From Halothermothrix sp. DTU029 (lineage in GTDB: Bacteria; Bacillota; Halanaerobiia; Halanaerobiales; DTU029), in assembly GCA_001512435.1 (NCBI GenBank), contig LFRS01000026.1, positions 258 to 40,146 on the forward strand: 39,889 nt of DNA, read 5' to 3'. Both the position numbers and the translations under genes were made by a program. Positions 13,291-37,619 of this stretch are shown one piece after another. How positions within the stretch are numbered: the stretch's first letter is position 1; every line of letters starts with the position of its first letter. The notes beneath the pieces are model-generated. The model ran no database searches and was not told the origin of the DNA. It saw only the letters and a list, made by a program, of their open reading frames with translations.

Positions 13291-13300
13291 AATCAAAATC

Positions 13301-18369: not shown

Positions 18370-19437
<1,068 letters not shown>

Positions 19438-19502: not shown

Positions 19503-20198
19503 TCAGATCAATCCTCTCTCTCTCATGCTGACATAAATACCATCACCAATAATCACATGATCCAGGACATCTATCCCCATTACTTCCCCTGCTTCCAATA
19601 GTTTTTTGGTTATATTAATATCTTCACGACTGGGTTCAGGAATGCCACTGGGATGATTATGTACCAGGATCATGGCTGCGGCACTGCGTTTGATCGCTTC
19701 CTTAAATACTTCCCGGGGATGAACAATGGAACTGGATAGGCCCCCTTTACTAATAAGGGGTATAGCTATAACCTGATTTTTTATGTCCAGAAGGACTACT
19801 TTAAATACCTCCTGGGTCAGGTAGCGTAACTCTGGCATTAAAAGCTGAACAACATCCCCTGGAGTGCGAATCAAATCCCTTTCTTCCCTTTCCAGAGATG
19901 CCAATCTTTTACCCAATTCCACTACTGCTTTAATCTGGGCTGCCTTTGTATCTCCAATTCCTTTTAGCTCTTTTAGTTCATTAATGGATAAATAATTTAG
20001 AGCCTTTAAACCGCCAAATTTGTTGATAAGGTCCTGTGACAATTCTACGGCAGTTCTCCTGTCATTACCTACTCTGATTATTAAAGCCAGTAATTCTGCA
20101 TCAGTTAACCTTTCTGCTCCATATTTGATAAGCTTTTCACGGGGGCGTTCATCTGCAGGCATCTCTTTGATAGTAAACCTATAATCAACAGAGCCCAT
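19503..20198 (-). CDS. radC: RadC/JAB-domain DNA repair-family protein
   Basis: MPADERPREKLIKYGAERLTDAELLALIIRVG... HNHPSGIPEPSREDINITKKL (JAMM motif). Confidence 0.95.
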   Translation of the reverse strand: MGSVDYRFTIKEMPADERPREKLIKYGAERLTDAELLALIIRVGNDRRTAVELSQDLINKFGGLKALNYLSINELKELKGIGDTKAAQIKAVVELGKRLASLEREERDLIRTPGDVVQLLMPELRYLTQEVFKVVLLDIKNQVIAIPLISKGGLSSSIVHPREVFKEAIKRSAAAMILVHNHPSGIPEPSREDINITKKLLEAGEVMGIDVLDHVIIGDGIYVSMRERGLI

Positions 20199-20247
20199 AA
20201 ACTATCTCCCCACTTTTCTTTATAGAGCATATTTATATGAAAACTTT

Positions 20248-20823
20248 TTAAAAAATTGATATACCAAATTCCTTTAACATCTTTACCAAAAGATGAATAG
20301 GTAAACCTACAACAGTATAATAAGAACCCCTTATTGACTCCACAAAGGCACCACCTATGCCCTGTATACCATATCCACCTGCCTTATCCAGGGGCTCCCC
20401 TGTCCTGACATAATTTCTAATATCATCATCTGAAATTGGACCCATAGAAACCTCTGTCCTGTCATAATCTACCAATATTCTGCCTGAATTTGTTTCATAA
20501 AGAGCCAGACCAGTAAGAACAGTATGGTCTTTATTCCGGAGATTCTTCAACATCAAGATTGCCTCCTCCGGGTTCCTTGGCTTGCCCAGGATCTCTCCTT
20601 CCAGCATAACAATAGTATCTGAACCTATGACCAGGGCATTCTCTACTAAAGTGCCAACTCCTTCTGCCTTGGCCTTTGAGAGTTCCTTCACCATCTCTTC
20701 AGGTGGCAGAGCAGCAAAATCCTTTTCTTCGATTTTACTTGGAATGACAGTAAAATCCAGGCCCAACATCTGCAATAAGTCCTGCCGGCGTGGAGAGTTG
20801 GAAGCCAGTACAAGTTTAGCCAT
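20248..20823 (-). CDS. maf: Maf-like nucleotide pyrophosphatase
   Basis: LVLASNSPRRQDLLQMLGLDF, GSDTIV, DKAGGYGIQGIGG. Confidence 0.95.
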   Translation of the reverse strand: MAKLVLASNSPRRQDLLQMLGLDFTVIPSKIEEKDFAALPPEEMVKELSKAKAEGVGTLVENALVIGSDTIVMLEGEILGKPRNPEEAILMLKNLRNKDHTVLTGLALYETNSGRILVDYDRTEVSMGPISDDDIRNYVRTGEPLDKAGGYGIQGIGGAFVESIRGSYYTVVGLPIHLLVKMLKEFGISIF

Positions 20824-21343
20824 CTCCAGCCCCTCCCCCCTCTACTACTGGCAAATATCTGCTTGTAAAATAAGTAATCAGGCCTACACCTATTCCAGTA
20901 GGGATAGCCAGTAAGGTTAAATAAGGTAAGTAATAAAAGATTCCTGGATTTTTGATAATAAAATAGGCAATTAACAACTGGCCCAGGTTATGAAATACTG
21001 CTCCAATTATACTAACACCAATTAAGCTAAATTTATCCTGGAATAGATAATATACTAAAGCCATAAAGAGATAACCTGTCAGACCCCCTCCTAAGCTAAG
21101 ATAGAAATTTATACTTAGAAAAGTTCCTGCATATAGTGAACCTATTAATACCCTTAAAAAGAAGATGGTTAATCCTCCCCTGAAACCAATTAAGACCAGG
21201 GCAATCAGGTTTACTATATTGGCAAGACCCAATTTAGCCCCAGGAACCAGGATAGGCATGGGGATCATGGCCTCAACAAAGTGTAATATCAATCCCAGGG
21301 AAACCAATAAACCTATCAGAACAACTTTTCTTGTATTACGCAT
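20816..21343 (-). CDS. Gx transporter / heptaprenyl diphosphate synthase component I-like membrane protein
   Basis: Polytopic protein with LVSLGLILHFVEAMIPMPILVPGAKLGLANIVNLIAL; overlaps maf start. Confidence 0.8.
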   Translation of the reverse strand: MRNTRKVVLIGLLVSLGLILHFVEAMIPMPILVPGAKLGLANIVNLIALVLIGFRGGLTIFFLRVLIGSLYAGTFLSINFYLSLGGGLTGYLFMALVYYLFQDKFSLIGVSIIGAVFHNLGQLLIAYFIIKNPGIFYYLPYLTLLAIPTGIGVGLITYFTSRYLPVVEGGGAGDG

Positions 21344-21453
21344 ATAATAACCTTTCCTGTTTATACTCTTTAAACCTACTTAATTAAATTCAATAAGTGC
21401 CTGGTATAATCCTTTATCAAACCGGGAAAATTATCAGGTAAATACAGGGATAT

Positions 21454-21870
21454 TTACCAGCTAACACCATCCAGGCCTGTCTCCTCAGCCTCAATCCAGA
21501 TAGAAATCTGGTTCGGTATACAGATAATCATGGGACCAGGATTCTCAATCCAACCTGTCTTTACACAGGTCTTTTCCAGATCATCAGGAGGGGCTTCTTT
21601 CATCCTGACCTTACCATTAGAAGCTTCAATTATACTGATACCTATTGGACCTTCTACCTCAATATAGAGAGGCTCTCCATAGGTACTCTCCAGGCCAAAC
21701 CTTATCTCTTCCTGATTTCCTTTCTGAATTACAAGAAACATTTCTGTACCCTCTCCTGTTTTCCCCTGAAAAGGATTGAAGGGAAATAAAATCCCACTCA
21801 GGCTTAAGACTAATAAGAAGAGGATCAATATCTTGTCATTTCTCGTTAGATAGTGCCACAAATCTTTCAT
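21454..21870 (-). CDS. NusG domain II-containing membrane-anchored protein
   Basis: Single N-terminal TM, then VEGPIGISIIEASNGKVRMKEAPPDDLEKTCVKTGWIENPGPMIICIPNQISIWIE. Confidence 0.8.
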   Translation of the reverse strand: MKDLWHYLTRNDKILILFLLVLSLSGILFPFNPFQGKTGEGTEMFLVIQKGNQEEIRFGLESTYGEPLYIEVEGPIGISIIEASNGKVRMKEAPPDDLEKTCVKTGWIENPGPMIICIPNQISIWIEAEETGLDGVSW

Positions 21871-21960: not shown

Positions 21961-22003
21961 GAAAACAAAAAATCAGGAATTGGACTGAAACCATTCCTGA
22001 TTT
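21961..22003 (-). terminator. Intrinsic terminator at the end of the sugar-transporter operon
   Basis: Minus strand AAATCAGGAAT / ATTCCTGATTT (11 bp) then TTTTTGTTTTC. Confidence 0.88.
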
Positions 22004-22031: not shown

Positions 22032-22901
22032 TTAATCCAGGCCACTGGTGCTCATTGTCTCAACAACCCTTGCTTGATTAATTACAAAAATAACTATTGG
22101 AACTATCATCAAGACCAGGCCAACAGCAGCTCCTACCCCTGCCCTGGCAATTCCACCCCAGATAACTTGGGTTAAGGCATAGGGCAAGGTCTTGAGTTCC
22201 TCACTATATATAAAACGGCTTCCTGTCTCCCGCCATAATTGTTGGACCGAAAGAATCATCAAGGTTAACCAGGCAGGCTTCACAATAGGCATCACTATCC
22301 GCCAGAAAATAGTTAATTCACTGGCCCCATCAACCCTGGCTGCCTCAATCAACTCATCTGGAACCATTGCTACCATAAACTGCCTCATTAAAAAGAGCCC
22401 TAAACTCATTCCCCAGGCCGGAACAATTAAAGCTGCATAAGTATCAACCCAGCCTATCTTGGCCATAATTAAATAATTAGGAATAGCTGTTACCTGATAG
22501 GTAAACATCAAAGATAAAACTACAGTCTGAAATAAAAAGGGCTTAAAGAGAAAATCATGTTTGGCCAGAGGATAGGCAGCCATTGAAGCCAGGATGATAT
22601 GTCCCCCTGTCCCTACTACCACCAATAATAAGGTATTAAAAAAATACCTGGACATAGGCACCCAGGACTCGCCCATAAGAACAAATAGATCCACAAAATT
22701 CTTAAAGGTCGGGTTCCGGACAAAAAACTGTGGAGGATATAACCACAATTCATTTAATGGTTTAAAGGCCTGACTGATCAGAAAAACCAGAGGTATGGCG
22801 GTAAAAACAGCACCAATTCCCAGAAAAGTAAAGAGAAAGACATCGCCACCAAGAGAGCGATTTAATCTCTTCCGCCTGATCCTGAACTTTGCTTTCATCA
22901 T
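22032..22901 (-). CDS. Carbohydrate ABC transporter permease (MalG-like)
   Basis: Six-TM binding-protein-dependent permease; EAA-type loop ELIEAARVDGASELTIFWRIVMPIVKPAW. Confidence 0.92.
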   Translation of the reverse strand: MMKAKFRIRRKRLNRSLGGDVFLFTFLGIGAVFTAIPLVFLISQAFKPLNELWLYPPQFFVRNPTFKNFVDLFVLMGESWVPMSRYFFNTLLLVVVGTGGHIILASMAAYPLAKHDFLFKPFLFQTVVLSLMFTYQVTAIPNYLIMAKIGWVDTYAALIVPAWGMSLGLFLMRQFMVAMVPDELIEAARVDGASELTIFWRIVMPIVKPAWLTLMILSVQQLWRETGSRFIYSEELKTLPYALTQVIWGGIARAGVGAAVGLVLMIVPIVIFVINQARVVETMSTSGLD

Positions 22902-22910
22902 TTATCCCCC

Positions 22911-23870
22911 TTAATCCCTTAATTTAGCCAAATACTTCTGCACAAGCCTCTGGGTAATAACCATAAAAGCAAAAAGGATAACTGCTATAGCCGAAGCATA
23001 ACCCATTTCAAAACGAATATTGCCATAATCCATCAAATGGCTGACTATAGTCCTTGCAGCATAATCAGTACTGGGAAAACCAACCAGGGCAATCAGCTGG
23101 TCAGCAGCTGCAAAGGATTGAGTTATGGTCATAATTGCGCCAAACATCATATGTGGTACTATCTGGGGCAAAGTAATATACCATAATTCCTGCCACCTAT
23201 TGCGGATACCATCTACAGCCCCAGCTTCGTAGAGGCTGGTATCTATACCCTGCAAACCACCGATAAAGGAAAGAAAACTTGTACCCAGACTGGACCAGAG
23301 AACACATAGTATTGATACAGGCATTATATAGGCTGGATCCTGAAAAAACTGAATTGGCTCTGTAATAATACCCCAGTAAAGAAGGATACCATTAACATAT
23401 CCATAAGCACTTCCATCAAACATTATCTTCCAGATAAAATATACCTGGCCAGTTAAAGCTGGAGCATAAAATAATAGGGTTAGGAAAGCCCTGATTTTAG
23501 GTTGTAATTCATTAATCATCCAGGCCAGTATTAAACAGGCAAAAAAGCTAATTGGTCCTGTCACCAGTGCAAAAACAAAGGTATTCTTGATGGCAATTAA
23601 GAAGACATCATCATCAAGAAAGAGCCGTAAATAATTATGCAATCCTTCCCATTGTGGTGGTTCCAACATATTATAATAAGTAAAACTTAAAGCTATGGCG
23701 ATAATCACTGGCAGTATTGTGAAAACAAAGAAGATAGTCCAATAGGGCATCACCAGAAGATAAGAAACCTTATTCTCTTTTAGATCACTGATTACATAAG
23801 TGGATATTCTTTTTATCTTTCCACCAATCCCCCTAATCAAACCCTTATTACTTTCTAGAACAGGTTGCAT
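22911..23870 (-). CDS. Sugar ABC transporter permease (MalF-like)
   Basis: EAA-type loop SLYEAGAVDGIRNRWQELWYITLPQIVPHM; polytopic. Confidence 0.92.
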   Translation of the reverse strand: MQPVLESNKGLIRGIGGKIKRISTYVISDLKENKVSYLLVMPYWTIFFVFTILPVIIAIALSFTYYNMLEPPQWEGLHNYLRLFLDDDVFLIAIKNTFVFALVTGPISFFACLILAWMINELQPKIRAFLTLLFYAPALTGQVYFIWKIMFDGSAYGYVNGILLYWGIITEPIQFFQDPAYIMPVSILCVLWSSLGTSFLSFIGGLQGIDTSLYEAGAVDGIRNRWQELWYITLPQIVPHMMFGAIMTITQSFAAADQLIALVGFPSTDYAARTIVSHLMDYGNIRFEMGYASAIAVILFAFMVITQRLVQKYLAKLRD

Positions 23871-23914
23871 AAAATAACCTCCACTCTTTAATCTAAGCTT
23901 TTCCTGCTCCGACT

Positions 23915-26878
23915 TTAATCTGCTTCTTCAATCCAGTACATTTTCTGATATTCTGCCGGTAGTTTTTCCAGTTCTGTCTCCAGGCCGAACTCTCTTCTTT
24001 TGTTGCTAATCTCCTTATTTATTTTCCGATTATACTCCAGTAAAGTCTCTCTTGGCGGTTCGTGGGAATAAATCACTTTCCGGAAAGCGTTATCTAAATG
24101 ACGCCCCACCATATAACCTCCTGGAACCTCCGGTAAACCTTTAACCCATTCCCATTGTTCCAACAATACTTCCAGCTCCTCTACCCTCCAGGGTAAAAGT
24201 TGAAGAGCTTCTATATTGGCTGTGGGGTATCTGGCTGCTGTACCCATAATACTTTCCAGTTCCCGTCCAAACCTTACCTGGGTTTCTGTACTGGTCCACC
24301 ATTTCAAAAATTCCCAGGCTGCCTCTTTATCTCTGGCATTCTTCATAATAATGGCTCCTGGCCCCTGGTTTGCTGTACCATAACCAAGAGCCGGGCTTGT
24401 TCTATCTATACTCCCGTCTTCCCGAAGAGTACCAGGAAGCAAGGTAAAACCCCATTTACCCCTCAGCTCTGGTGCAAAGACCTCCAGGTGATTTCGGAAG
24501 GTATAGCCGGTTATCAACAAAGGCATCTCTCCCATCCTGAAATAATTGGCATAATCATAATAAAGGGGCAAATTGTAGAGTTCATATAATTCTGTCCATC
24601 TAGTAAAAGCATCAATGGCCAGTTCTGAATCAAGATTGGTTTCAATACCATCTACCTTATATAATTCACCACCACTCTGGTAGAGGAGCATTAACATGGT
24701 GGAAACACCGGCATGGGCTACTATGCTCCCGGCTCCAGATGTTGCTTCACCAATACCACCTACTGCAATCTGTTCAATATTGGAATAGGGTAGGCCAAAA
24801 TCCATATTATTTTTCTGTAATTCTGCAATAACATGGAGGACATCATCCCAGGTCTGGGGCAGGTCAACGCCCATTTCCTGTAAGATATCAGTCCGGTAAA
24901 AGAGTACAGGGAAGATTTGCTGTTCAGGTAAGGCAAAAACACTATCCCTATATTTAAAAGGCACTAAAGAACTATATTTAAACCTGGTTGCAACCTCAGG
25001 AAAATCCTCAAACTCTGTCAGGTCTACAATAGCCTTACGGATAAAAAAGTTTATAGGAACTGCCTGGGAAACAGATAAGGCTACATCTGGCCCTTTATCC
25101 GCCAGGGTTGCTGGTAATATAACCCCTTCCTGGATTAGCTCCAGATTAACCTGAATCCCCGTCACCGGAGTAAAAGAATCTTCGATCATGGTTTTCAGGG
25201 TCTGGGCCTGATCCCGGCCTCCCCCAATCCAGACCTTGATGCTTTTGCCTTCATCATAGACATTTCCTATCTGATTATAATCATGGGTAAATGAAGCAAT
25301 AAAAGATTTAAGCTCATGAACCAACACCTGCCAGACTGATGGACTGGCTACAGGCATTTTTTCATCTGGACCAGCAATAACCAGATAATCCATTTGTAAG
25401 GGTTGTTCAGTTGTCATTAAGATCCAGCTACCAAGAGATGCCAGGTTGTCCCTTAACTCTGCCAGGCTTCTTGGTATTCTATCATCTGGCCTTTCTGCCA
25501 ATAAATCCAGCTGATGAGCCAGGCTATTTAAAAGAGAGACATGGTCTCCTTTTTCTCCAGTATATTCCTCCAGTTCAAAGGCCAATCTTCTTAAGGTCTT
25601 ACTCTGTTTCTGTAATCTATCTACCAGTGAAGGAATCTTATTCTCCAGTTGATAAGTCCGCATTGGGTCAGGATTACGGGAGGTAATCATAATAATCTGC
25701 CGATAAATAGTGGATAGTTCATAGAGGACTGAATTTGTATTAGCTATCATATCAGCAAAATCCCCCAGAACAACCTCCAGTTTAATTATATTTTCCCCTT
25801 TATCCAGGTAAATTAGATAGGGGTCTTCTGCTGATTTACCCGGGACAACCATCTGGTAATAATTAGAGTAATTAAAACGGATTGCCTCTGCTTCCTTAAA
25901 AGGAACCTGTCCATTAATGTATAATTTCCGTACTGTAAAGGAACCACTTCTGACATTTTGCTTGGCTTTTATCCCAATTTTATAAAGACCTGCTTCTGGA
26001 ACATCTACTTTCCAGGCTATCCACTGGCCTGCTTTGTTCCAGCTTTGCCCCCCAATGGTATTCAGGCGTATCTGGGCAGGATGGTATGGCTCTACTGTAG
26101 GATCCGCTTTATCATAGACAGGATAAAGGGTTTTACTGGAACGGTAAAGAGCATCTTCAGCCTGGACTATACAGATAAAATCATCAACTTTTTTATAACC
26201 CTTTTCCCTATATTCTTTTACTACTTCTTCGTAAGCTAAAGGACTGGCATACTGGAAAAGCTTCAGATAAGCTATAGCCATAGGCTCCCTTCTGGATACC
26301 AATCTTACTTTATTGCTTCCTTGATTGAAATAAAATAGATAAGGTTCAGAACTATAACCCATGGAATCCTCCAGTAGTTTGGTCTGCCAGATAAACACTT
26401 CTTTCTGGGGGGATCTAATATGGTTTCCCTGATTATCTATCCAATATCCATACTCATCTGTCCAGACCCGGGGAAATTCCAGAAACCTGGCTCCATCAAA
26501 GGGCATTTCACCATTAATAACTAAAGCTCTCTCAATATCCCCCCCTCTTCCTTCCAGGGGAAAATATTTTATCTCTATATTATAAAGGCCACTTTCAGGG
26601 ATCTCCACCTCCCATTCAACATAGCCACTTTCACTGGTAGCCAGGGCTTTTATGCCGGCCAGATTATCTATTACCTGGATATTATCCATATCTGTATCTA
26701 CATAATCCCAGGCTGGAATTATTAACTCCAAATCAGGCCTGTCGGCCTTTCCAGCCTTGCTCAGGTATTCCATATAATCCATATCTATTACTTCCAGGAC
26801 CCGGGCTTTTATGGGAGTTCTTATTAACATCATAAATATAAGTACAGTAATAATTATAAATATATCCCTCTTCTTCAT
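23915..26878 (-). CDS. Large extracellular solute-binding protein with two N-terminal carbohydrate-binding-like beta-sandwich modules
   Basis: Signal peptide from MKKRDIFIIITVLIF; two modules with GLYNIEIKYFPLEGR.../GLYKIGIKAKQNVRSG... and VINGEMPF/YINGQVPF motifs; helical linker; C-terminal family-1 SBP (KVWIGGGRDQAQTLKTMIEDSFTPVTGIQVNLELI...). ATG 26878 with GGAGGAGGGGGGTAGAAAGG upstream; track start 26995. Confidence 0.85.
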   Translation of the reverse strand: MKKRDIFIIITVLIFMMLIRTPIKARVLEVIDMDYMEYLSKAGKADRPDLELIIPAWDYVDTDMDNIQVIDNLAGIKALATSESGYVEWEVEIPESGLYNIEIKYFPLEGRGGDIERALVINGEMPFDGARFLEFPRVWTDEYGYWIDNQGNHIRSPQKEVFIWQTKLLEDSMGYSSEPYLFYFNQGSNKVRLVSRREPMAIAYLKLFQYASPLAYEEVVKEYREKGYKKVDDFICIVQAEDALYRSSKTLYPVYDKADPTVEPYHPAQIRLNTIGGQSWNKAGQWIAWKVDVPEAGLYKIGIKAKQNVRSGSFTVRKLYINGQVPFKEAEAIRFNYSNYYQMVVPGKSAEDPYLIYLDKGENIIKLEVVLGDFADMIANTNSVLYELSTIYRQIIMITSRNPDPMRTYQLENKIPSLVDRLQKQSKTLRRLAFELEEYTGEKGDHVSLLNSLAHQLDLLAERPDDRIPRSLAELRDNLASLGSWILMTTEQPLQMDYLVIAGPDEKMPVASPSVWQVLVHELKSFIASFTHDYNQIGNVYDEGKSIKVWIGGGRDQAQTLKTMIEDSFTPVTGIQVNLELIQEGVILPATLADKGPDVALSVSQAVPINFFIRKAIVDLTEFEDFPEVATRFKYSSLVPFKYRDSVFALPEQQIFPVLFYRTDILQEMGVDLPQTWDDVLHVIAELQKNNMDFGLPYSNIEQIAVGGIGEATSGAGSIVAHAGVSTMLMLLYQSGGELYKVDGIETNLDSELAIDAFTRWTELYELYNLPLYYDYANYFRMGEMPLLITGYTFRNHLEVFAPELRGKWGFTLLPGTLREDGSIDRTSPALGYGTANQGPGAIIMKNARDKEAAWEFLKWWTSTETQVRFGRELESIMGTAARYPTANIEALQLLPWRVEELEVLLEQWEWVKGLPEVPGGYMVGRHLDNAFRKVIYSHEPPRETLLEYNRKINKEISNKRREFGLETELEKLPAEYQKMYWIEEAD

Positions 26879-27036
26879 CCTTTCTACCCCCCTCCTCCTA
26901 TCTAAAACTCCTGCAGAGAATTTAAGAAAACCTTTATTATGAAAATAACTTTTTATAGTTTTTATTATGAATATAAAAGATAAAGGAATAAGCATTTTAA
27001 TTTCATCTACTTATAAATAAGGAATAAAGCCAGAAG

Positions 27037-27065
27037 TCCTGTGTCCCTAAACAAGGGACACAGGA
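27037..27065 (-). other. Strong intergenic hairpin 3' of the solute-binding protein gene (not a canonical terminator)
   Basis: Perfect 12-bp stem TCCTGTGTCCCT / AGGGACACAGGA, 5-nt loop; no U-tract follows on the minus strand (CTTCTGGC). Confidence 0.8.
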
Positions 27066-27080
27066 TTATAATATACTTGC

Positions 27081-28391
27081 CTAGTCATTAAATTCTTTGT
27101 CCAGAACCTGCTGAATTACTGGTGCCACCGCTTCCATAGCAGAAGCAGGACTCTGTCCTTCATAAAGGGCCTTACCAATAGCTCCACCCAGTGGATAACT
27201 GGTATCCCAGGTTGGGCCAAGGATACCTTCCATAATATACATCTCTCCGGACCATTCTTCTGCAGCCCTTACCAATACTTCATAGGAAATCTCATCCAGT
27301 GCTGCTTCGATCAACATTTCTTCTATGCCTTCTTCTTCCTCATCTGCCCTGAAAAGGAACCTGTGCAGGGCAACTAAACCCATGGGGTATTTAGAATTAA
27401 CAGGCAGATAAAAGGAATCAGCCTGCCTGGCCGGGAATTGGTAATCATCTACATGAGGTCCTTTTGGTAATGGTACTATACCATATTCAAATTCAACAAC
27501 ATCTGTAAAGCTGGGATCAATGATATTCCATAAGGGGAAGGAGGCCATAGCTACCTGGCCAGCCAGGAATTCTTTCTGTTGCCAGTCCCCTTTGGAAATA
27601 TTCATCAGCTGGGACCACTGTCTCAATTTTCCTAAATAATAAGTAGCTGCTTCACTATCATAGGCAAAAACATGCCTGCCATTTTCGTCTATTATAGTAG
27701 GATTAGCACCATTGGAAAAACCCCAGACCGCAATATCTTGCTGCCCAATACCCCATTGATCCAGTTCACCATCACCATCAGTATCCCGGGTTGCCCTGAT
27801 GGCAATTTCCTCCATAGCATCATAAGTCCATTCACCACTTAGATAAAGTTCATCCAGGGCTGGTAATCCATCCCGGGCAAATATTTCTTTATTCCAGACA
27901 AGGAATTCTATAACACCAATCGGACTTTTACCTGCTCCCAGGGAATACTTTTCTCCTCTCTTGACAAAGGTATCTGTTACAACCCTCTGGGAAAAGAGGA
28001 GATCATCATAATAGGAGGCAGGCACTATTTCACTAATTGGGTATAAGGCATTTTTAGCAATCATACCCATAACTGCATTACTGGGCAGCATCCAGATGTC
28101 ATAACCTGACTCATCACTTAAAAGGCGGTTCATCATATTTTCAGCTATTCCATCCCAGGGAAGTCCCAGGTAGCGGATTTCTCCTATATTAAACTTCTCC
28201 ATAGCCTCTGCCAGCCGGCCAGGATAATCCCCACCTTCCATAAAACTTTCTCTGGGATCATAAAAGCCAACATAGGTTACAGTAGCTCCGCCAAAGTCAA
28301 TATTACCGACATCAAAAGGCAGTTCATAGGCAAATAAGCAAGCAGAGAACAATAAGCCAAGAGCTAAGGTCATTAAAAACAACTTTCTCAC
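27081..28391 (-). CDS. Extracellular sugar-binding protein (ABC transporter)
   Basis: N-terminal signal sequence, family-1 SBP-like sequence (EYLV.. LVWNKEIFARDGLPALDELYLSGEWTYDAMEEIAIRATRDTDGDGELDQWG); GTG start with AAAGGGGGA upstream. Confidence 0.87.
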   Translation of the reverse strand: MRKLFLMTLALGLLFSACLFAYELPFDVGNIDFGGATVTYVGFYDPRESFMEGGDYPGRLAEAMEKFNIGEIRYLGLPWDGIAENMMNRLLSDESGYDIWMLPSNAVMGMIAKNALYPISEIVPASYYDDLLFSQRVVTDTFVKRGEKYSLGAGKSPIGVIEFLVWNKEIFARDGLPALDELYLSGEWTYDAMEEIAIRATRDTDGDGELDQWGIGQQDIAVWGFSNGANPTIIDENGRHVFAYDSEAATYYLGKLRQWSQLMNISKGDWQQKEFLAGQVAMASFPLWNIIDPSFTDVVEFEYGIVPLPKGPHVDDYQFPARQADSFYLPVNSKYPMGLVALHRFLFRADEEEEGIEEMLIEAALDEISYEVLVRAAEEWSGEMYIMEGILGPTWDTSYPLGGAIGKALYEGQSPASAMEAVAPVIQQVLDKEFND

Positions 28392-28482
28392 TACACAATC
28401 CCCCTTTTTTTATTTTGTAATGAACCCTTAACAATCTCTTTATCTATCTACCATTAATCCCCCCTTGTATAAATGTATTTTT

Positions 28483-28511
28483 TAAATTCCTGTATAGATG
28501 ACAGGAATTTA
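28483..28511 (-). other. Intergenic hairpin immediately 3' of a permease gene
   Basis: Perfect 11-bp stem TAAATTCCTGT / ACAGGAATTTA, 7-nt loop, abutting the TAA at 28512; A-rich rather than U-rich 3' side on the minus strand. Confidence 0.75.
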
Positions 28512-29537
28512 TTAGCCTACAATACCGGTTCTCTGGATACTTTCAATAAAATACCGCTGCATAAAAGCATAGAGGACCAGCAAGGGAGCTATATAGAGAA
28601 TCATTCCAGTATGCCTAATGATGGAAGCATACTGACTCTTCAATTTATTATGATCACCATCAAGGGCCTTCAAGGCTGCCCCCTGTAAAGCCTGTAAGAG
28701 AAAATTCCCCTGTCCACTTAAAAAGATAGTATTATAGAAATAGTCATTCCACTGCCAGACAAAAGAGAAGAGAAAAATTACTACTAAACCAGGAATAGCA
28801 CCAGGCAACATAATCCTGTAGAAGGTTTTAAAAACACCTGCTCCATCAACATAAGCCGCTTCCTCCAGATCCCTTGGCATCCCCTTAAAAAATTGTCTCA
28901 TCACATAGATAAACAAACCATTCCTCAAACCAACTGCTGTCGCAGAGATTAAAATAAAAGGCCAATAACTGTTTAATAAGCTGATCCCTGGTTCAGGCAA
29001 CAAACCAAAGAAGGTAAAATACTTAAAATTAAGAGAAAGAGGTACAGTAATCATGGTAGGTGGTACTACCAGAGTAAATACTGCCAGGGAAAAAATGAAT
29101 TTATTACCAGGAAATTTAAAGCGGCCAATTCCATAGGCTACAGCAGTACAGGATATTAATTGCAGTATACTTACTGTCAGGGTCAATAGTAATGTATTAA
29201 AAAAACTTACAGGATAATTCATGGCCTTCCAGGTAACCCTGTAATTATCCAGAGTAAAATTTCGTGGAATCCACCGGACAGTCTGGTCAAAAATGTCTGC
29301 TTCAGTCATAAAGGAGGTAACCAGTTTTTCCAATAAGGGCATCAGGATAATATAAGAAACTCCGATCAAAAATAAGGCCCTGATTATGCTTATTGAAATT
29401 CCTTTAATTTTCTTATTGAATCTACTGGCCCGGTTCCGGTCTTTTTCCCGGTTAATCTGATCCAGGATATCTGCTGCCTGGAGCCCGGCTGTTCTGACAA
29501 ACCTGACCTTTACACCTGTATCAGTATTTGTTTCCAT
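28512..29537 (-). CDS. Carbohydrate ABC transporter permease (MalG-like) with about 50-aa N-terminal cytoplasmic extension
   Basis: EAA-type loop DLEEAAYVDGAGVFKTFYRIMLPGAIPGL; polytopic. Confidence 0.92.
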   Translation of the reverse strand: METNTDTGVKVRFVRTAGLQAADILDQINREKDRNRASRFNKKIKGISISIIRALFLIGVSYIILMPLLEKLVTSFMTEADIFDQTVRWIPRNFTLDNYRVTWKAMNYPVSFFNTLLLTLTVSILQLISCTAVAYGIGRFKFPGNKFIFSLAVFTLVVPPTMITVPLSLNFKYFTFFGLLPEPGISLLNSYWPFILISATAVGLRNGLFIYVMRQFFKGMPRDLEEAAYVDGAGVFKTFYRIMLPGAIPGLVVIFLFSFVWQWNDYFYNTIFLSGQGNFLLQALQGAALKALDGDHNKLKSQYASIIRHTGMILYIAPLLVLYAFMQRYFIESIQRTGIVG

Positions 29538-29549
29538 AATTATCCTCCC

Positions 29550-30440
29550 CTATTCCTGATAAAATACCCATCTGGAAGAAACTTTTATAGTAATACCCAG
29601 GATTATAAGAATCATCACAAAATACAAAACAGCCATTGCCATACTGACACCATATCCTGCTCCCATTATGGCTTCATCTCTCACTAACATCACCACTTCA
29701 TTAGTGGTTGTTAAGAAGGTATCAATAATTGTATAAACTGCATTTGTCAGGATAATTGGACTCATCATCGGGAAGGTTATCAACCAGAATGATTCCCAAC
29801 CTGTAGCTCCTTCCACATCTGCCGCCTCATAAATAGAAGGTGGGATAGACTGTAGTCCAGCCAGAAAGATTAAAATCTGAATTCCGGAAGCCCTGATAAT
29901 ATCAGGTATTCTGTCTACAGCCCCAAGAATAAACTCTATAAAACCCTCAGGCAGCTTGGTATTCATCAATAAATTCCTCAAGCCAACACCGGTAAAAATT
30001 AATTCTGCATTCCTGGCCCCATGGAGGAGCTGTGTAACCATATCATCGATATCCATCTGAATAATTATCCCTGCACTCAGGATAACCGGTAAAAAGAAGA
30101 TTGTTCTGGCCAGAAACCGGCCTTTAAACCTCTGATTTAAAACAAGGGCTGCAAAAAAACTAAAGGCTAAAACCAGGGGTACATTGGTTATGGTATCTAA
30201 AATAGTTTCCACAAATATTCTCAAAAAATCAGGATGAACATTTAAAATATAGCCGTAATTATCGAAACCTTTAAAGTTTAAAACAAAGCCCTCCCTGCTT
30301 ATTACCAGCTCATTAAAACTGAAAATAAAGGCCTGAATAAAAGGATAGAAAAAAAAGAGAGTAAAGCCCAGCAAAAAAGGCAGGGAAAATAAATAGCCAG
30401 CCAGTATCCTTCTTTGTTTAAAAGATAACCTCTTTTTCAT
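29550..30440 (-). CDS. Sugar ABC transporter permease (MalF-like)
   Basis: EAA-type loop SIYEAADVEGATGWESFWLITFPMMSPIIL; polytopic. Confidence 0.92.
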   Translation of the reverse strand: MKKRLSFKQRRILAGYLFSLPFLLGFTLFFFYPFIQAFIFSFNELVISREGFVLNFKGFDNYGYILNVHPDFLRIFVETILDTITNVPLVLAFSFFAALVLNQRFKGRFLARTIFFLPVILSAGIIIQMDIDDMVTQLLHGARNAELIFTGVGLRNLLMNTKLPEGFIEFILGAVDRIPDIIRASGIQILIFLAGLQSIPPSIYEAADVEGATGWESFWLITFPMMSPIILTNAVYTIIDTFLTTTNEVVMLVRDEAIMGAGYGVSMAMAVLYFVMILIILGITIKVSSRWVFYQE

Positions 30441-33163
30441 TGCAAATCCTCCTGTATAACTTTAAAATCTTCCCCCTTTACCTCTACCCCTTCTACCATT
30501 ACTGCCTCTTGATTATAATTAACTATAACAGCTTTACCATTTGCATAAACTGTTTTAAAGACATTATCTGCTAATTCCATATGGTCGATTATTCTCTGAT
30601 TATAGGTTTCTTTTAAAAGTTCATTTAAAGCCTGGTACAGTTCAGCTGCCTCTGGCAACCATTGCCGATAATTCAGGGCATACTCGTTCTCAAAGACTGT
30701 TCTTTTAACTGCTGATGATTCACTATAAATACCCCGGTAATAGGGGATAGCTCCTGTCTCCATAGATTTTAGTAGGGAGTATTGATTATATAACATATTC
30801 AGGGGCTGGCCAGAATAATCTATATAGCCATGTAAGACAATTGGTAAAAAAGGTATGCCTTTATCAATAATATTGGCTCCAGTACTGTAAAGAGGCGTTT
30901 TTACTACCTGGTCTACATAGGGTAAAGTATAGGCATTTCCTCCTTCTACCAGCAATTTCACTTCCTGTTCTTCTTTTAACTTCTTCAATACATTGACTAC
31001 ATTATTCAAGGACTGTTGCCGGTCAATATTCTTAGCAGGATTAGTTCTATAATCAGAGTTTAATTGTTGCCCCAGGTGTCTTAAAGAAAGGGCGCCTATA
31101 TTATATTTACTGTATTCTTTAAGAAAATTATCTACAAAAGATGAAAGAAACTTGCTGGATAATAGCAATCTTCCTCCCTTAAATTTTTCCTGTTTAGTAG
31201 CCAGATTATAATCAGGGATACTGGCTATCTTTCTATTTAAAAAACGGGCTGCATATCTCCTATTTAAAAAATCATTCCAGAGATTAGTTTTATATATATT
31301 ATAAAAACTCAAATCCGGATATACTTCTATACCTTTGGCCTCCAGAAAAGTTAAGAGGTCTTTAAAATCTTTTTCAGTACCGGCTGTTTTTTCCAGTCTT
31401 AGTTTCCTGGGTAAATAATGGTGTTCTCCACCGGCCAACCAGCCTGTTAAACGTAATTTTAGATCCTTAATCCCCTCTTTATCTAATTCTTCGATGATTT
31501 CTTTAACCTGCTGAAAATTTGTCACTGCTTTTGTCAGCCTTCTGGGTATACCCAGGACAGGCTTTGTCTCATGAATAGAAGTAAGCAGTTCCAGCATAAA
31601 GGGGATATTTTCCCTTTCTTCCAGGGGGCTTAATTTATATTTTCCTACCAGATACTCCTGATATCTATGGGCCATGCCAACATAATTGGCCTTTTCTCCA
31701 TTTAAGAAACTATATCTTATCTGGATATTTCCTTCAGGTAGGCGGGATTGAAAGAGGCTCATCTTTGTTTCTTCCCATTCATAGCCAAAGACAAGTTCTG
31801 TTCTTTGCATGGTAATAAAACTGGCCTGGACTGTATTATAGGAAGAGGTTCGCCCGGCTATATCTGCTTTAATATTAGCAAAGGCATCTCCCTCCTCTAT
31901 AATGGCCAGAAAGGCTTTATCTCCATTTTTTAAGCCATAAACCGGAATATGTAATTGTTCAGTTATTTCAGGAATTCTCTCTCTCGGCTGCAGGGCATAA
32001 TCCAGCCCATAAAGGTTTTTCCCATAGGGTTTTGCATCCAGGCGGCCATTATTTAAATAAATCAGGGCACCAGACCCATCAGGAACAAAGATATATCCTT
32101 CGGCATCACTTCCTGCAGCACCAAAGTAGGGTAATATATCCAGTGAATAAAGGGGATAAGTCTCCATAGAACTCTTACCTGCTACCAGGACTTTTTCAGG
32201 ATAGGTAACCTTATCTAAGGGCACCCTGACCAGAAAATCCTTCCCATCCAGCAAATAGTCGATAGTAACATGAAAAACACGTTGATTAGGTACTGGAGGC
32301 TCCAGATTGAGTTCTTGATAATCTTTTGCCAGCTCCTCGGGACTATAACCACTATTCTGGAAAGCCAGGAAAATATTATCCCGGTCCCAGGCCCGGATAG
32401 TCCTCTTCTGTACATAGACCTGCTTATCTTTTAGATAATTTAAATCTTCTGCCTTGAGGTCAGCTATACTGGCCAGATCATTTCTGTTGTTAACATAAAT
32501 ACCCAAAAAGTGCAGGACCAACCTTTCAAAATCCCTTTCCCTCATCTCCTCTAAAGGAGTGGTAAAGGCATAGTTCCCTAAGACTCCATCTTCATCAAAG
32601 TTGTAGATATCAAGTTTCCTCCCCTCTGGGCCCAGGGGCTCCAGACCAAAGAGGTGATATTGGGAGAGCAAAAACTCCTGTTCCTCAACAGGCAAATTCT
32701 TCAAGACCTTCTCTTCCATACTTTTTTGTTCAATAATTAGAGGAATTAAGTCTTCTTTTTTCCACTCCTGGCCAACTACATAATCAATACTGACTCCATT
32801 TTCTATTAAATTAATCTCATATTGGTTAAAAAGGATACTATCGGAGTAATTATTCATAAACATTTGTCTATTACCAGGTAGATAATATGATAGGGAAAAC
32901 TGGGCATTTAAGACATCTTTATCTGAACCCCTGGCCACCTTCTCTTCCTTATCCCGTCCAGGAGGATTGGAATACCAGATAATCCCACTATCTTTTTCCT
33001 GAACAGCCACTTCTGTTGTGTCATAATTAAGATAAAGGATTAAATGTTCATTTTCTGCCACCAGACTATAGGCATCTAAGTCAGCTGCCCTTAGGTCTAC
33101 TGCAAAAAGGCCAGAAATTATATAGAAAGCAAGTAATATGGCCCAGAATCCTTTTCTTCTCAT
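30437..33163 (-). CDS. DUF5696-like secreted/periplasmic protein, putative glycoside-hydrolase fold
   Basis: Signal peptide MRRKGFWAILLAFYIISGLFAVDLRA; N-terminal beta-rich region, C-terminal barrel-like half (LRLTGWLAGGEHHYLPRKLRLEKTAGTEKDFKDLLTFLEAKGIEVYPDLSFYNIY...). Start refined from 33229 (which overlaps the upstream gene) to ATG 33163. Confidence 0.75.
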   Translation of the reverse strand: MRRKGFWAILLAFYIISGLFAVDLRAADLDAYSLVAENEHLILYLNYDTTEVAVQEKDSGIIWYSNPPGRDKEEKVARGSDKDVLNAQFSLSYYLPGNRQMFMNNYSDSILFNQYEINLIENGVSIDYVVGQEWKKEDLIPLIIEQKSMEEKVLKNLPVEEQEFLLSQYHLFGLEPLGPEGRKLDIYNFDEDGVLGNYAFTTPLEEMRERDFERLVLHFLGIYVNNRNDLASIADLKAEDLNYLKDKQVYVQKRTIRAWDRDNIFLAFQNSGYSPEELAKDYQELNLEPPVPNQRVFHVTIDYLLDGKDFLVRVPLDKVTYPEKVLVAGKSSMETYPLYSLDILPYFGAAGSDAEGYIFVPDGSGALIYLNNGRLDAKPYGKNLYGLDYALQPRERIPEITEQLHIPVYGLKNGDKAFLAIIEEGDAFANIKADIAGRTSSYNTVQASFITMQRTELVFGYEWEETKMSLFQSRLPEGNIQIRYSFLNGEKANYVGMAHRYQEYLVGKYKLSPLEERENIPFMLELLTSIHETKPVLGIPRRLTKAVTNFQQVKEIIEELDKEGIKDLKLRLTGWLAGGEHHYLPRKLRLEKTAGTEKDFKDLLTFLEAKGIEVYPDLSFYNIYKTNLWNDFLNRRYAARFLNRKIASIPDYNLATKQEKFKGGRLLLSSKFLSSFVDNFLKEYSKYNIGALSLRHLGQQLNSDYRTNPAKNIDRQQSLNNVVNVLKKLKEEQEVKLLVEGGNAYTLPYVDQVVKTPLYSTGANIIDKGIPFLPIVLHGYIDYSGQPLNMLYNQYSLLKSMETGAIPYYRGIYSESSAVKRTVFENEYALNYRQWLPEAAELYQALNELLKETYNQRIIDHMELADNVFKTVYANGKAVIVNYNQEAVMVEGVEVKGEDFKVIQEDLQ

Positions 33164-33188
33164 ATACCACCATCCACCTTCCTCCTGT

Positions 33189-35414
33189 TTATAATCGCAG
33201 GAAAATTTCATTATATATTTCAGAAACAAACCGCATTACATGTTCTCCCAGATTGAAAAATAAGACCCCGATAAACATAGTGAAGGCGATTCCGAAAATA
33301 ACCAGAATAGTGACCAGAATATTCTTGCTACTATCATACTGATGAATAGTCATGGTCCCAAAAAAGAGTAAGAACAATGACCAGAGTAGGGAAATTACTA
33401 TAAATGAACCTATTAATACCCCTTCCTCTTCAAGGAGGAAATTACTGATGATTGTTACCGGTATATTGATAATAATAACCGGGGTAAAGGCATAGGCAGT
33501 AGCTATATAGATATCACTAAAGGTCCCTTTTCCCTCCATTAAGGTTGTTAAGGACCAATTGACTATGACCCAGAGCATAAAGGGGATCAAGACACTGCTA
33601 AATTCAAATAATATGTTCAGATTGGCCAGATCATTAGTGTTAAAAATAAAGCCCATATACTGTCTCTGGAATACATAAGTAAGTGAAAGGAAAATTAAGA
33701 GGACTGTGGCTGCAGGGAGATTCCCCCTTTTTTCATGTTTTAAATCCCAGAAGCCATCAAAGGGATGAAAAATTACATATCTGGCAAAGGATAATCCATC
33801 AATTGTCTTCACCAGATATAAATATAATATTCCCAGTTTTCCTTTTATAAAACTGGCCAGTGTCCATTGCTCAGCTTTGATATAATTCATGGCCGCAAGC
33901 TCCGAACTGGCAATACCCTTCAGGACCAGAGGTCTTAGCCCCTCTCCTATTTTTCTATAAATTTTTTTCCTAATAGATAGGAGCAAAATTAACAATACTG
34001 CAACAAAAATATAGGTATTTATATTGGCTTCAATTACCTCTTTACGATAGAGTTCAAAGGCCTTGGAGTAATTACTTCTATCCTGGCCAAGTTTGAAATT
34101 TACCATAGCCTCCAGAAAATTATCTGCCTGCAAATGGGCTTTACCAATCCCGGTGTAGGCAAGGTCATAATTGGCATTAATATCTTTTAACTGACTCCAT
34201 ACCTGGGCAGATTCCCGATATAAGCCCCGGTTATAAAGGTCGAGGGCGGTATGAATTAACTTCTGATAATAAGTTGGAGTAAAAACAGTAATACTATTCA
34301 ATTGCTCATCCAGAACCAATATATAATCATCTAAAACGGTTAAGGCCACAGGTGAAAGAAAATTACCCCTGTTATTTCCCTTTTCCCCAAAGACATATAA
34401 GAGGTCACCATAGTAGTCATATGTAAATACCCTTCCTCTTTCCTTATCGAGGACACTATATATTCCATTTTCCCTTGACCAGATGTCCACAAAACTTGAA
34501 CCTGGCAAAATATACTCTCCCTGGGCATTTCGCAGGGATGAACCGTGATCACCAATAGGAGGGGTAAAACCTTCTCTCTTCAGGACATCAGCACCAGCAG
34601 GGTTTAGTCTCCTGACAGCTTCTTCCTGCCGGATCTGGCCTGAAGCTACTGTAGTATAGATAAAACCTTTCTCATCAACATGAAGATTACTATACTCGGT
34701 AGGAAGAATCAGGGATAACCTTTCCTGCCTGGCCCTGGAAGAAAATCTTCTCCAGAGATAATCAATAATATTGGGATTAACCCTCGGTGCCCCAATAAAA
34801 CCTCTAAATTTTCCATCCAGATCAAATTCCATAATTCCTTCATAGACTTTATCAGCGATTACATAAGTTCTCCCCACATTATCAACTGATATTTTTATCG
34901 GAAAATAATTGAAATTCTGATTAAATAAATCCTCATTTCCCGGGACCGGTGAACTAATTATACGAAGCAGTTCACCGGAACTATCCAATACCACGATACG
35001 GTTATTATTGCGATCTGCTATATAGAGGACTCCCTCTTCACTAACATGAATCCCATATGGCTGATTAAAGGTATCTTCCTGGCCATTGTTATTAAATGAA
35101 GAGATAACCTTAACCAGATTCCAATCTTTATCTATAACTACAATGCGGTTATTACCAGTATCCGCTACATAGACCAGGGAATTATTCCAGGCAAAAATAT
35201 CCTGGGGTTTTCTAAAATTATCTATTTCCAGTTCCTTGCCACCTATTACCTTTAATGGTTGATAGGCCTGTGGTGCTGCTACCGGTTCAGACCAGAAGTC
35301 ATAGGTATAACTATGGTAGGGAACTGAATAGGTAGAATGACCTGCCCCAACCAGGCAGGAAGATATCAGCAGGAGAACAATAATTAAGGCTAGAAGCCGC
35401 CCTGTCCTTAGCAA
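33189..35414 (-). CDS. NHL-repeat + TPR + YIP1-like multi-domain membrane protein
   Basis: ISSC lipobox-like site; repeated VYVADTGNNRIVVID / LYIADRNNNRIVVLD blades; TPR-like LYNRGLYRESAQVW...AYTGIGKAHLQADNFLEAMVNFKLG; C-terminal multi-TM YIP1-like region (FHPFDGFWDLKHEKRG...). TTG start with GGAGGGG upstream. Confidence 0.82.
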   Translation of the reverse strand: MLRTGRLLALIIVLLLISSCLVGAGHSTYSVPYHSYTYDFWSEPVAAPQAYQPLKVIGGKELEIDNFRKPQDIFAWNNSLVYVADTGNNRIVVIDKDWNLVKVISSFNNNGQEDTFNQPYGIHVSEEGVLYIADRNNNRIVVLDSSGELLRIISSPVPGNEDLFNQNFNYFPIKISVDNVGRTYVIADKVYEGIMEFDLDGKFRGFIGAPRVNPNIIDYLWRRFSSRARQERLSLILPTEYSNLHVDEKGFIYTTVASGQIRQEEAVRRLNPAGADVLKREGFTPPIGDHGSSLRNAQGEYILPGSSFVDIWSRENGIYSVLDKERGRVFTYDYYGDLLYVFGEKGNNRGNFLSPVALTVLDDYILVLDEQLNSITVFTPTYYQKLIHTALDLYNRGLYRESAQVWSQLKDINANYDLAYTGIGKAHLQADNFLEAMVNFKLGQDRSNYSKAFELYRKEVIEANINTYIFVAVLLILLLSIRKKIYRKIGEGLRPLVLKGIASSELAAMNYIKAEQWTLASFIKGKLGILYLYLVKTIDGLSFARYVIFHPFDGFWDLKHEKRGNLPAATVLLIFLSLTYVFQRQYMGFIFNTNDLANLNILFEFSSVLIPFMLWVIVNWSLTTLMEGKGTFSDIYIATAYAFTPVIIINIPVTIISNFLLEEEGVLIGSFIVISLLWSLFLLFFGTMTIHQYDSSKNILVTILVIFGIAFTMFIGVLFFNLGEHVMRFVSEIYNEIFLRL

Positions 35415-35572: not shown

Positions 35573-36931
35573 TCAGGCATAAAGGGCCTCCCCCTTTGTC
35601 TCGATGACTTTTTTGTACCAGTAAGCAGAATCCTTAATAATCCTCTCCCCTGTTTCAAAATCTACATAGATTAAACCAAAGCGCTCCAGATAGCCCTGGG
35701 CCCATTCAAAATTGTCCATCAAGGACCAGTGGAAATAACCCTGAATATCAACACCATCTTCTCCAGCCTTTTGCAATTCCCTTAAATACCTGTTAGTAAA
35801 ATCTATTCTCTGGGGATCATGTACCTTACCATCCACTGCCACCCAATCTACATTGGACATACCGTTCTCTGTTATTATGACAGGTTTTTTGTACCTTTCA
35901 TAATAAAATCTTGGTCCCCAGTAGAGGGCTTCAGGAGTAATAGGCCAGTAATAAGCATTTCTTGCATAACCTACTTTTCTCTCTGCAGGCACAGCCTGAC
36001 CTTTATCATCCAACTTTACACAAACACCCTGATAGATATTTACACCAAAGAAATCAATTGGTTCTGAAATAATTTTAAAATCATCGGTTTTAATTTCTGG
36101 CAGATATTCCTCAAATATCTTTAAACCCTCTTCTGGATATCTACCCAGAATTACAGGATCCATCCACCAGTTTATAGCCCAGAGCCCTTTATCTTCCACA
36201 GAAAAACTTGCTCTTCTGGCAACCTGAATATTCTCTTCACTCTTTGTTGCAGGAAAAACAGGAGAATCTGAAGGAGCCAAACCAATACGGCAATCCTGTA
36301 CAGAGGTCTCTCTAATTACCCGGGCCCCTTTTCCATGAGCCAGGAGTACATTATGGCTTATCTGTAATAAATCTTCCATACCCAATTTTAAACCTGGAGC
36401 ATGAACTCCATCCTTATGGCCCAGATTTACAAAAACCTGAGGTTCATTAATAGTTATCCAGTTCTTAACCCGGTCTGACAGCTTCTGGACAACAACTTCT
36501 GTGTATTCGGCAAACCAATCTGGACTATCTGGATTCAGCCAACCACCTTTTTTGTATAATTCATAGGGATAATCCCAATGAAAAAGGGTAATATATGGCT
36601 CAATACCATTTTCCAGTAGTTCATCTATTAATTTATCATAAAAATCCAGGCCTTTCTGATTTACTTTGCCTGTGCCATTAGCTAAAATCCTTGGCCAGGA
36701 TAGAGATAGACGATAAGCCTGAAGGCCAAGCTCCTTCATCAGTTGAACATCTTCCTTATACCTGTGATAGTGGTTACAGGCAATATCCCCGTTGTCTCCA
36801 TTTTCAATAGCTCCTTTTTGGCGGGTAAAAATATCCCAGACTGATAATCCTTTTCCATCTTCATAGGCGGCACCTTCGATTTGGTATGAAGCTGCTGCTG
36901 CACCCCAGACAAAGTTTTCCGGAAATTTCAT
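35573..36931 (-). CDS. Glycoside hydrolase family 1 beta-glucosidase
   Basis: FPENFVWGAAAASYQIEGA, acid/base TINEP, nucleophile ITENG; no signal peptide (cytoplasmic). ATG 36931 with AAAGGAGGG upstream; track start 36961. Confidence 0.95.
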   Translation of the reverse strand: MKFPENFVWGAAAASYQIEGAAYEDGKGLSVWDIFTRQKGAIENGDNGDIACNHYHRYKEDVQLMKELGLQAYRLSLSWPRILANGTGKVNQKGLDFYDKLIDELLENGIEPYITLFHWDYPYELYKKGGWLNPDSPDWFAEYTEVVVQKLSDRVKNWITINEPQVFVNLGHKDGVHAPGLKLGMEDLLQISHNVLLAHGKGARVIRETSVQDCRIGLAPSDSPVFPATKSEENIQVARRASFSVEDKGLWAINWWMDPVILGRYPEEGLKIFEEYLPEIKTDDFKIISEPIDFFGVNIYQGVCVKLDDKGQAVPAERKVGYARNAYYWPITPEALYWGPRFYYERYKKPVIITENGMSNVDWVAVDGKVHDPQRIDFTNRYLRELQKAGEDGVDIQGYFHWSLMDNFEWAQGYLERFGLIYVDFETGERIIKDSAYWYKKVIETKGEALYA

Positions 36932-36989
36932 GAGAAGCCCTCCTTTATTATGTTTATTCATTTGTATCTTGTTATATTTTAGTAATGAT

Positions 36990-37619
36990 TTACCATTCCA
37001 CTCCCTTTATAATTAATTTTGCCATCATTTCCTCTTTCAACACTTCCAGAGTATGGCCAGGAGTTAAACAATACACCTTTCCTTGTCCATATTGATGAGC
37101 CCAGCCAGCTATAGCATTGCCGTATTCCTCACTTTCTGCTTGCAAAAAGACTGTAGTATCTTCTAGATCTACATCAACAATATATAGTTCATCAACAATC
37201 TTAAATTCTTCTATTTCCTCTACAGGAAACAAATCATTCTTCACAGGACTGACTAAAATTTCTGGATGTTCTTCCGGGTGTTCAAGAAAATGGCCCTTGA
37301 CAACTTGCCGTAAAATTCCCTCTGTCGAAAAATCAGCCAATCCACAATGTAATACCAGTAATTTGCCACCACTGGAAACATAATTATCGATAAACTCTTC
37401 TTCTTCAGTGGTGATCCAGATTTCATCATTTGGGTTTAATTTCCCAGAGCAAGCCAGGATAAAAACATCATATTCCTCCAGTTCCTGCCAGGGAATCTCC
37501 CGGTAATTATCTTTAATATCTAAGGAATACTTATCTCTCAAAATACCTTCTAGCCCTTCCCTTAAATAGTCTGCCCCATGGTAAAAATCACCTGCTAAAG
37601 CCAGTATTTTCTGCATCAT
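36990..37619 (-). CDS. ThuA-like (trehalose utilisation family) protein
   Basis: Class I glutamine-amidotransferase-like fold pattern (FVDNYVSSGGKLLVLHCGLADF..., YGQGKVYCLTPGHT). Confidence 0.8.
   Translation of the reverse strand: MMQKILALAGDFYHGADYLREGLEGILRDKYSLDIKDNYREIPWQELEEYDVFILACSGKLNPNDEIWITTEEEEFIDNYVSSGGKLLVLHCGLADFSTEGILRQVVKGHFLEHPEEHPEILVSPVKNDLFPVEEIEEFKIVDELYIVDVDLEDTTVFLQAESEEYGNAIAGWAHQYGQGKVYCLTPGHTLEVLKEEMMAKLIIKGVEW

Follow-up and report, generated by a model that had tools for sequence, protein, structure and literature searches.

Descriptions of glycan import in Bacillota usually involve one binding protein and one permease pair. The eight-gene cluster analyzed here lies in a 39,889-nucleotide (nt) stretch of Halothermothrix sp. 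DTU029, called the window below (contig LFRS01000026.1, positions 258 to 40,146, or C168:258-40146 of our genome G000, a draft of 1.95 Mb). At 22032-35414 the open reading frame (ORF) list and Pfam agree with an earlier note on this DNA, which had placed eight genes there, all on the minus strand, in the order given below in the downstream direction. Their Pfam content is four BPD_transp_1 permeases, two SBP_bac_1 solute-binding proteins (SBPs), one DUF5696 protein and one protein with NHL and Yip1 domains (here YIP for short). The two SBPs, which the note had called unrelated, are divergent members of one Pfam family. The terminator that it had placed after the last gene has a clear fold and a T run. 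Lengths are in amino acids (aa).

33189-35414, minus strand: NHL/TPR/Yip1 membrane protein, 741 aa (Pfam, profile matches, hydropathy, linkage)
30437-33163, minus strand: DUF5696 protein, 908 aa with the likely ATG start (Pfam, AlphaFold2, Foldseek, profiles, residue survey)
29550-30440, minus strand: MalF2-type permease, 296 aa (Pfam; 100/100 testable loci)
28512-29537, minus strand: MalG2-type permease, 341 aa (Pfam; 100/100 testable loci)
27081-28391, minus strand: SBP2, solute-binding protein and variable receptor, 436 aa (Pfam, locus comparison)
27037-27065, minus strand: 12-bp hairpin, no T run, between SBP2 and SBP1 (-23 kcal/mol, z -4.6)
23915-26878, minus strand: SBP1, giant binding protein, 987 aa with the likely ATG start (Pfam, profiles, model)
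22911-23870, minus strand: MalF1-type permease, 319 aa (Pfam)
22032-22901, minus strand: MalG1-type permease, 289 aa (Pfam)
21961-22003, minus strand: intrinsic terminator (-15.8 kcal/mol, z -5.1, T run)

The junctions, described earlier as overlapping or very tight, are so only in part. DUF5696 and MalF2 share a true 4-nt overlap, whereas the 41-nt overlap of NHL/TPR/Yip1 with DUF5696 hinges on a TTG start, and the likelier ATG at 33163 leaves about 25 nt between them. The longest ORF for SBP1 begins at 26995 but its likely start is the ATG at 26878, and the gap between SBP2 and SBP1 is therefore about 200 nt. The hairpin in this gap may modulate read-through from SBP2 into SBP1, which is why we grade the eight genes as likely, rather than established, to form one co-transcribed operon.

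The cluster is not a product of chance, because a second complete eight-gene set on another contig of the same genome (C185; L003 1-20000) and about 100 loci elsewhere repeat its core. On C185 the order is GH3, SBP2, YIP, DUF5696, MalF2, MalG2, SBP1, MalF1, MalG1 and three GH10 genes (GH, glycoside hydrolase family); SBP2 runs into a masked stretch there and is incomplete. A search of 300 genomes of the phylum for DUF5696 (PF18952) gave 26 strong positives; within the order, presence was 7 of 38 genomes. The NHL-Yip1 protein was present in the identical 26 genomes, with one extra partial match, and SBP1 was found in 26/26. Two further genomes (G104 and G155) have SBP1 without DUF5696, but these are probably truncations, given that SBP1 lies about 670 bases from the contig end on the side of the missing genes.

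The survey loci and those from a scan of named genomes were annotated with profiles made from the proteins of the window and of C185, and after duplicate removal 110 distinct DUF5696 loci remained, all in Bacillota; the counts that follow are restricted to loci with sufficient contig flank. Among testable loci, NHL/TPR/Yip1, MalF2 and MalG2 each accompanied DUF5696 in 100/100. These four genes are an inseparable core and their linkage is obligate. This neighborhood check upholds the earlier proposal that the two large proteins belong with the transporters, and the presence of DUF5696 and NHL-Yip1, far from being a rare co-occurrence, is near-identical across the 300 genomes. A chance operon is ruled out by the 100/100 linkage. 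Spacing is tight, with median gaps of 13 nt (YIP-DUF5696), -4 nt (DUF5696-MalF2), 17 nt (MalF2-MalG2), 13 nt (SBP1-MalF1) and 3 nt (MalF1-MalG1) in a tally that includes some duplicate loci. Genomes of the Paenibacillus type often encode the NHL and Yip1 parts in two separate adjacent genes.

Among named relatives the closest is a metagenome assembly of Halanaerobiaceae, whose DUF5696 protein is 81% identical. A cassette of a single lineage is ruled out, as Halanaerobiaceae, Caldicoprobacter, Mahella, Paenibacillus, Cohnella, Lederbergia, Thermobacillus and Butyrivibrio all carry it. Viral spread was also rejected: viral contigs held no relative, and plasmid records numbered only two. Plasmids of Butyrivibrio fibrisolvens and Paenibacillus cellulosilyticus carry annotated cassettes in matching order.

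Outside the core, the cassette is modular. SBP1, MalF1 and MalG1 come all or none (54 all, 14 none and 1 ambiguous of 69 well-flanked loci), usually upstream of the core (63 loci) and only 6 times downstream as in the window. SBP2 is present in 64 of the 69 loci and the full set of eight genes in 49. Elsewhere each cassette has one to six SBP2 paralogues, in tandem arrays of up to six in loci L035 and L039; these two and L138 have their arrays (six at most) behind a single cassette, as if many receptors served one channel. Stand-alone SBPs of about 430-510 aa that correspond to the C-terminal part of SBP1, without its carbohydrate-binding modules (CBMs), occur in five genomes of one family (G007, G054, G093, G128 and G158; f13).

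Several metagenome genomes have 8 to about 20 DUF5696 genes, with YIP at near 1:1 and fewer SBP1 modules. Matches to DUF5696/YIP/SBP1, fragments counted, are 11/10/4 in G062, 8/8/4 in G166, 11/13/6 in G040 and about 20/19/11 in G082. These four, together with G136 and G325, each carry 8 to about 20 DUF5696 cassettes in about 2-3 Mb, a strong expansion for their size. Across 57 complete loci, mean identity is lowest for SBP2 (27%) and highest for MalF1 and MalG1 (about 60%). Distance matrices of the components correlate at 0.80-0.93, to which species ancestry contributes, and the highest value is that of DUF5696 with YIP. These sequence comparisons suggest that the core stays constant, the receptor changes fast and the second importer changes slowly.

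Such modularity would also be expected of two ordinary, independent importers of the CUT1 type that share an operon, with NHL-Yip1 and DUF5696 as accessory regulators or sensors. The SBP1-MalF1-MalG1 unit splits cleanly from the core and the two units can exchange order; moreover, NHL and TPR domains often serve in protein binding or sensing. We nonetheless consider this explanation unlikely, as YIP, DUF5696, MalF2 and MalG2 stay unseparated in 100 testable loci, DUF5696 typically overlaps MalF2 by 4 nt and ordinary regulators (LacI and AraC among the cassette neighbors, and two-component systems) are already close by.

In its components the cassette corresponds to a CUT1-type ABC importer and is predicted to transport a sugar. 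An EAA-type loop is found in all four BPD_transp_1 permeases, and SBP1 and SBP2 are both SBP_bac_1 proteins, as in CUT1 importers. The window genome has one OB_MalK match (C76), in a full ABC ATPase sequence of the MalK/MsmK type, and a ugpC ATPase gene heads the cassette on the P. cellulosilyticus plasmid. In Anaerocellum bescii, MsmK serves CUT1 importers (PMC12710961). The description of the giant SBP1 as a CBM-fused binding protein is supported by both sequence profile and structure model. It consists of an N-terminal anchor, two sandwiches of the CBM35/CBM6 type (residues ~50-210 and ~235-370), a helical region (374-490) and the SBP_bac_1 domain. The N-terminal 521 residues were modeled with a pLDDT of 93.6 and match CBM35 and CBM6 structures (2w1w, 2cdp, 5fui and others), and the SBP1 profile matches a Paenibacillus enzyme in its CBM35 region (5x7g, E 4e-5). 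Aromatic positions are conserved in the CBM-type modules, which are predicted to bind carbohydrate. The NHL/TPR/Yip1 protein begins with a signal/lipobox-like segment, followed by an NHL beta-propeller (~64-380), TPR repeats (~387-452), a transmembrane segment (~459-483) and a C-terminal Yip1 membrane domain (546-714). In Pfam, Yip1 scores 64.6 bits (E 1.4e-17, cut-off 28.6) and NHL 37.4 bits (cut-off 20), and the protein's profile matches NHL propellers and consensus TPR structures. From hydropathy and a basic segment after the transmembrane helix near residue 470, we infer that the NHL and TPR parts would lie outside the cell.

The DUF5696 protein (Pfam match E 9e-190) is predicted by AlphaFold2 (pLDDT 92.3) to have an N-terminal beta-sandwich, a (beta/alpha)8-type barrel (~520-830) and a C-terminal beta domain. 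The top Foldseek match of the model is the GH129 structure 8rzk (E 3e-33, TM 0.69 by target) and the next is GH101; the sequence profile also matches the GH129 structures 5opq (E 1.6e-8) and 5wzn (E 2e-5). Glyco_hydro_129 (PF11308) was not matched by the window protein, for which Pfam gave only DUF5696 at E <= 0.001. Searching the genome with PF11308 gave zero matches, controls included, and is therefore uninformative and adds no evidence. No GH structure was matched by a sub-profile of the C-terminal barrel, and none was found by sequence through a 662-aa intermediate protein used as a bridge to the catalytic residues. This intermediate (L030:580-2568), with a weak match to the DUF5696 barrel, comes from a genome without the cassette.

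The catalytic residues of ZgGH129 are Asp486, equivalent to Asp435 of NagBb, and Glu517, and ZgGH129 has just one member of the NagBb catalytic pair (PMC5698469). In DUF5696 the corresponding positions were placed at the ends of barrel strands 4 and 5 by the strand order of the model. Acids occupy both in only 10 of 61 members. The strand-4 position, placed by strand positions only, is Asp or Glu in 40/61, and in the two copies of the window genome it is His (window copy) and Tyr. Because the positions inferred from GH129 are not conserved, DUF5696 is probably a binding or scaffold subunit, and the model makes hydrolysis of the GH129 type improbable for the family. Of the integrated glycan capture, processing and import proposed earlier, capture and import are thus supported and processing by DUF5696 is doubtful.

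Alternatively, DUF5696 could be a working glycosidase (exo or endo), anchored in the membrane, whose catalytic residues have moved and which represents a new GH family with a distant relationship to GH129; it would trim oligosaccharides where they enter the MalF2-MalG2 importer. Its complete GH129 architecture and confident fold would fit, as would the barrel region's strongly conserved polar residues (H582 56/61, D704 56/61, N743 59/61, R715 61/61 and E802 60/61), and residue swaps occur in the GH129-like superfamily, given that ZgGH129 shares only one NagBb catalytic residue (PMC5698469). Even so, we judge it quite unlikely, both from the rarity of paired acids and the His and Tyr of the window genome and because the enzyme sets found with DUF5696 are for beta-xylan, mannan, N-glycan, uronan and sulfated glycan, a range that is hard to reconcile with one conserved bond specificity.

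The link of the cassettes to glycans rests on their neighbors, as the GH3/GH10-flanked C185-type paralogue keeps both partners in three more genomes from the GTDB family of the window, at a DUF5696 identity of 49-79%. Other copies lie beside GH2 and a pectate-lyase-like protein, GH85, the polysaccharide lyase PL14 or a sulfatase. At clostridial loci the neighbors include GH43, GH10, GH2, GH5, GH95, GH115, a GH78-type rhamnosidase, an apiosidase and GH4, and at loci of bacilli GH26, GH38, GH113, GH18 and an alpha-L-fucosidase. Because the adjoining enzyme sets vary so widely, the cassette itself is generic and not bound to one glycan, and the single unusual glycan proposed in the earlier note is not borne out. 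The same variety rules out a single-substrate system. The substrate of each copy is probably set by the neighboring enzymes and SBP2. Individual copies give hints of this kind: sulfated glycan use is suggested where a cassette adjoins a sulfatase (L179:10635-12056), and N-glycan use where one adjoins a GH85 endo-beta-N-acetylglucosaminidase (L171:1387-4086). The P. cellulosilyticus plasmid (NZ_CP054609.1, L165) combines cassette and ugpC ATPase with several LLM-class flavin-dependent oxidoreductases and no glycosidases, a context that hints at a sulfonated or otherwise unusual substrate.

In the window, two genes lie upstream of the cassette on the same strand.

35573-36961, minus strand: GH1 beta-glucosidase (TIGR03356 536.8 bits, cut-off 478.5)
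36990-37619, minus strand: ThuA-like protein, 5' of GH1 (cassette link uncertain)

The 158-nt gap between GH1 and the cassette contains two hairpins. No signal peptide was seen in the GH1 product, which is a probable cytoplasmic partner of the cassette and points weakly to beta-glucosides as the substrate of this copy. Beyond these genes, one flank (2253-21870) encodes Obg, L21, RNase G, MreBCD, a penicillin-binding protein (PBP), RodA/FtsW, MinCD, RadC and Maf, and the other (37723-39824) Rnf genes, which puts the cassette between core or housekeeping blocks. The cell-shape and division genes MreBCD, PBP, RodA/FtsW and MinCD could indicate an extracytoplasmic task on the cell's own envelope glycan (building, recycling or sensing), to which co-location with carbohydrate-active enzymes would be secondary; some Paenibacillus copies have few large same-strand neighbors, and one has flavin monooxygenases. 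Against this stand the up to 10-20 copies beside varied degradative enzymes, the GH3/GH10 partners kept by members of the GTDB family and a patchy presence in the phylum and the order, unlike that of a housekeeping envelope function, and we regard an envelope role as very improbable.

The explanation that we favor, with moderate confidence, is that the cluster represents one instance of a modular apparatus, an ABC system of the CUT1 type that takes up complex oligosaccharides and is made up of the inseparable four-gene core, the interchangeable receptor SBP2 and the all-or-none second importer (SBP1, MalF1 and MalG1). Oligosaccharides would be set free by extracellular enzymes, and the two CBM modules of SBP1 would tether a polymer or a long oligomer to the membrane. 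With its GH129 fold and with acids not conserved at the inferred catalytic positions, DUF5696 would bind or orient chains without cutting them. The NHL/TPR region, predicted to be outside, may scaffold the receptors and DUF5696 above the MalF2-MalG2 channel, with the Yip1 domain as the membrane anchor of its protein. MalF1-MalG1 and MalF2-MalG2 would be loaded by SBP1 and SBP2, respectively, and both powered by a shared MsmK-type ATPase, after which cytoplasmic enzymes, here probably GH1, would complete the degradation.

Several observations weigh against this apparatus or parts of it. The nearest same-order relative (L174, 50% identical) has PL14 and no adjoining GH1, which makes the substrate of the window copy uncertain, and the Paenibacillus plasmid copy lies beside flavin monooxygenases, not glycosidases. 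The SBP1 module is not nearby in 14 well-flanked loci, so one complex of both permease pairs is not obligatory, and the mirror-tree correlations also reflect species ancestry. Finally, the second half of the DUF5696 barrel is too diverged for a sequence match. Given that the catalytic positions come from model strand order, a displaced active site, for example at Asp704 or Glu802, is possible. A bolder version, in which both permease pairs, the CBM-fused SBP1, SBP2, the pseudo-glycosidase DUF5696 and NHL/TPR/Yip1 form one dedicated machine for glycan capture and translocation, a Bacillota functional counterpart to SusCD repeated with different receptors for each polysaccharide, is tentative and in our view rather doubtful.

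If the modular apparatus is correct, sugar uptake in these bacteria may include a general element that has so far escaped notice: an obligate core with two large extracytoplasmic proteins, in up to about 20 copies per genome, would be a missing general component of fiber and biomass breakdown. It would for the first time offer a testable function for DUF5696 and for a bacterial Yip1 family, the cassette could serve as a marker for polysaccharide utilization loci in unannotated Bacillota, and its paralogues could be matched to substrates via the adjoining enzymes. Public records annotate individual cassette genes but leave the system unnamed. DUF5696 was not found in the literature searched, and a search for Yip1/NHL with transporters returned no description of the system (subscription literature was outside both searches); the transport papers searched on Butyrivibrio and Ruminiclostridium did not mention the cassette proteins under the terms tried. 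The cassette is widely conserved in Bacillota and probably an apparatus, apparently undescribed, for the uptake of plant and other complex sugars.

It resembles the CUT1 importers with a shared MsmK/MsmX ATPase, such as Athe_2052-2054 of A. bescii (PMC12710961) and XuaABC of Ruminiclostridium cellulolyticum (PMC9675976), which also combine an SBP with two permeases, lack an ATPase gene in the cluster, adjoin glycosidases and import large oligosaccharides. However, those importers are described with one SBP and one permease pair, whereas the cassette has two permease pairs, a giant CBM-fused SBP and obligate DUF5696 and NHL/TPR/Yip1 proteins. DUF5696 shares its whole-protein fold, with a partial sequence match, with GH129 (NagBb 5wzn; ZgGH129 5opq/8rzk) and GH101, but differs from GH129 in that the inferred catalytic acids are not conserved, it is linked to permeases, it has an N-terminal membrane anchor or signal and it is, in Pfam, a family of unknown function. 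The two N-terminal sandwiches of SBP1 resemble known CBM35/CBM6 modules (2w1w, 5x7g), which are fused to enzymes rather than to an ABC solute-binding domain. No cassette protein matched the TonB-dependent SusC porin or SusD lipoprotein families in Pfam. By analogy, nevertheless, the Bacteroidota SusC/SusD loci offer the same combination of a constant import module in many copies, changing enzymes and glycan-holding proteins, which the cassette would achieve with ABC permeases of the cytoplasmic membrane, in monoderm genera as well as Halanaerobiaceae.

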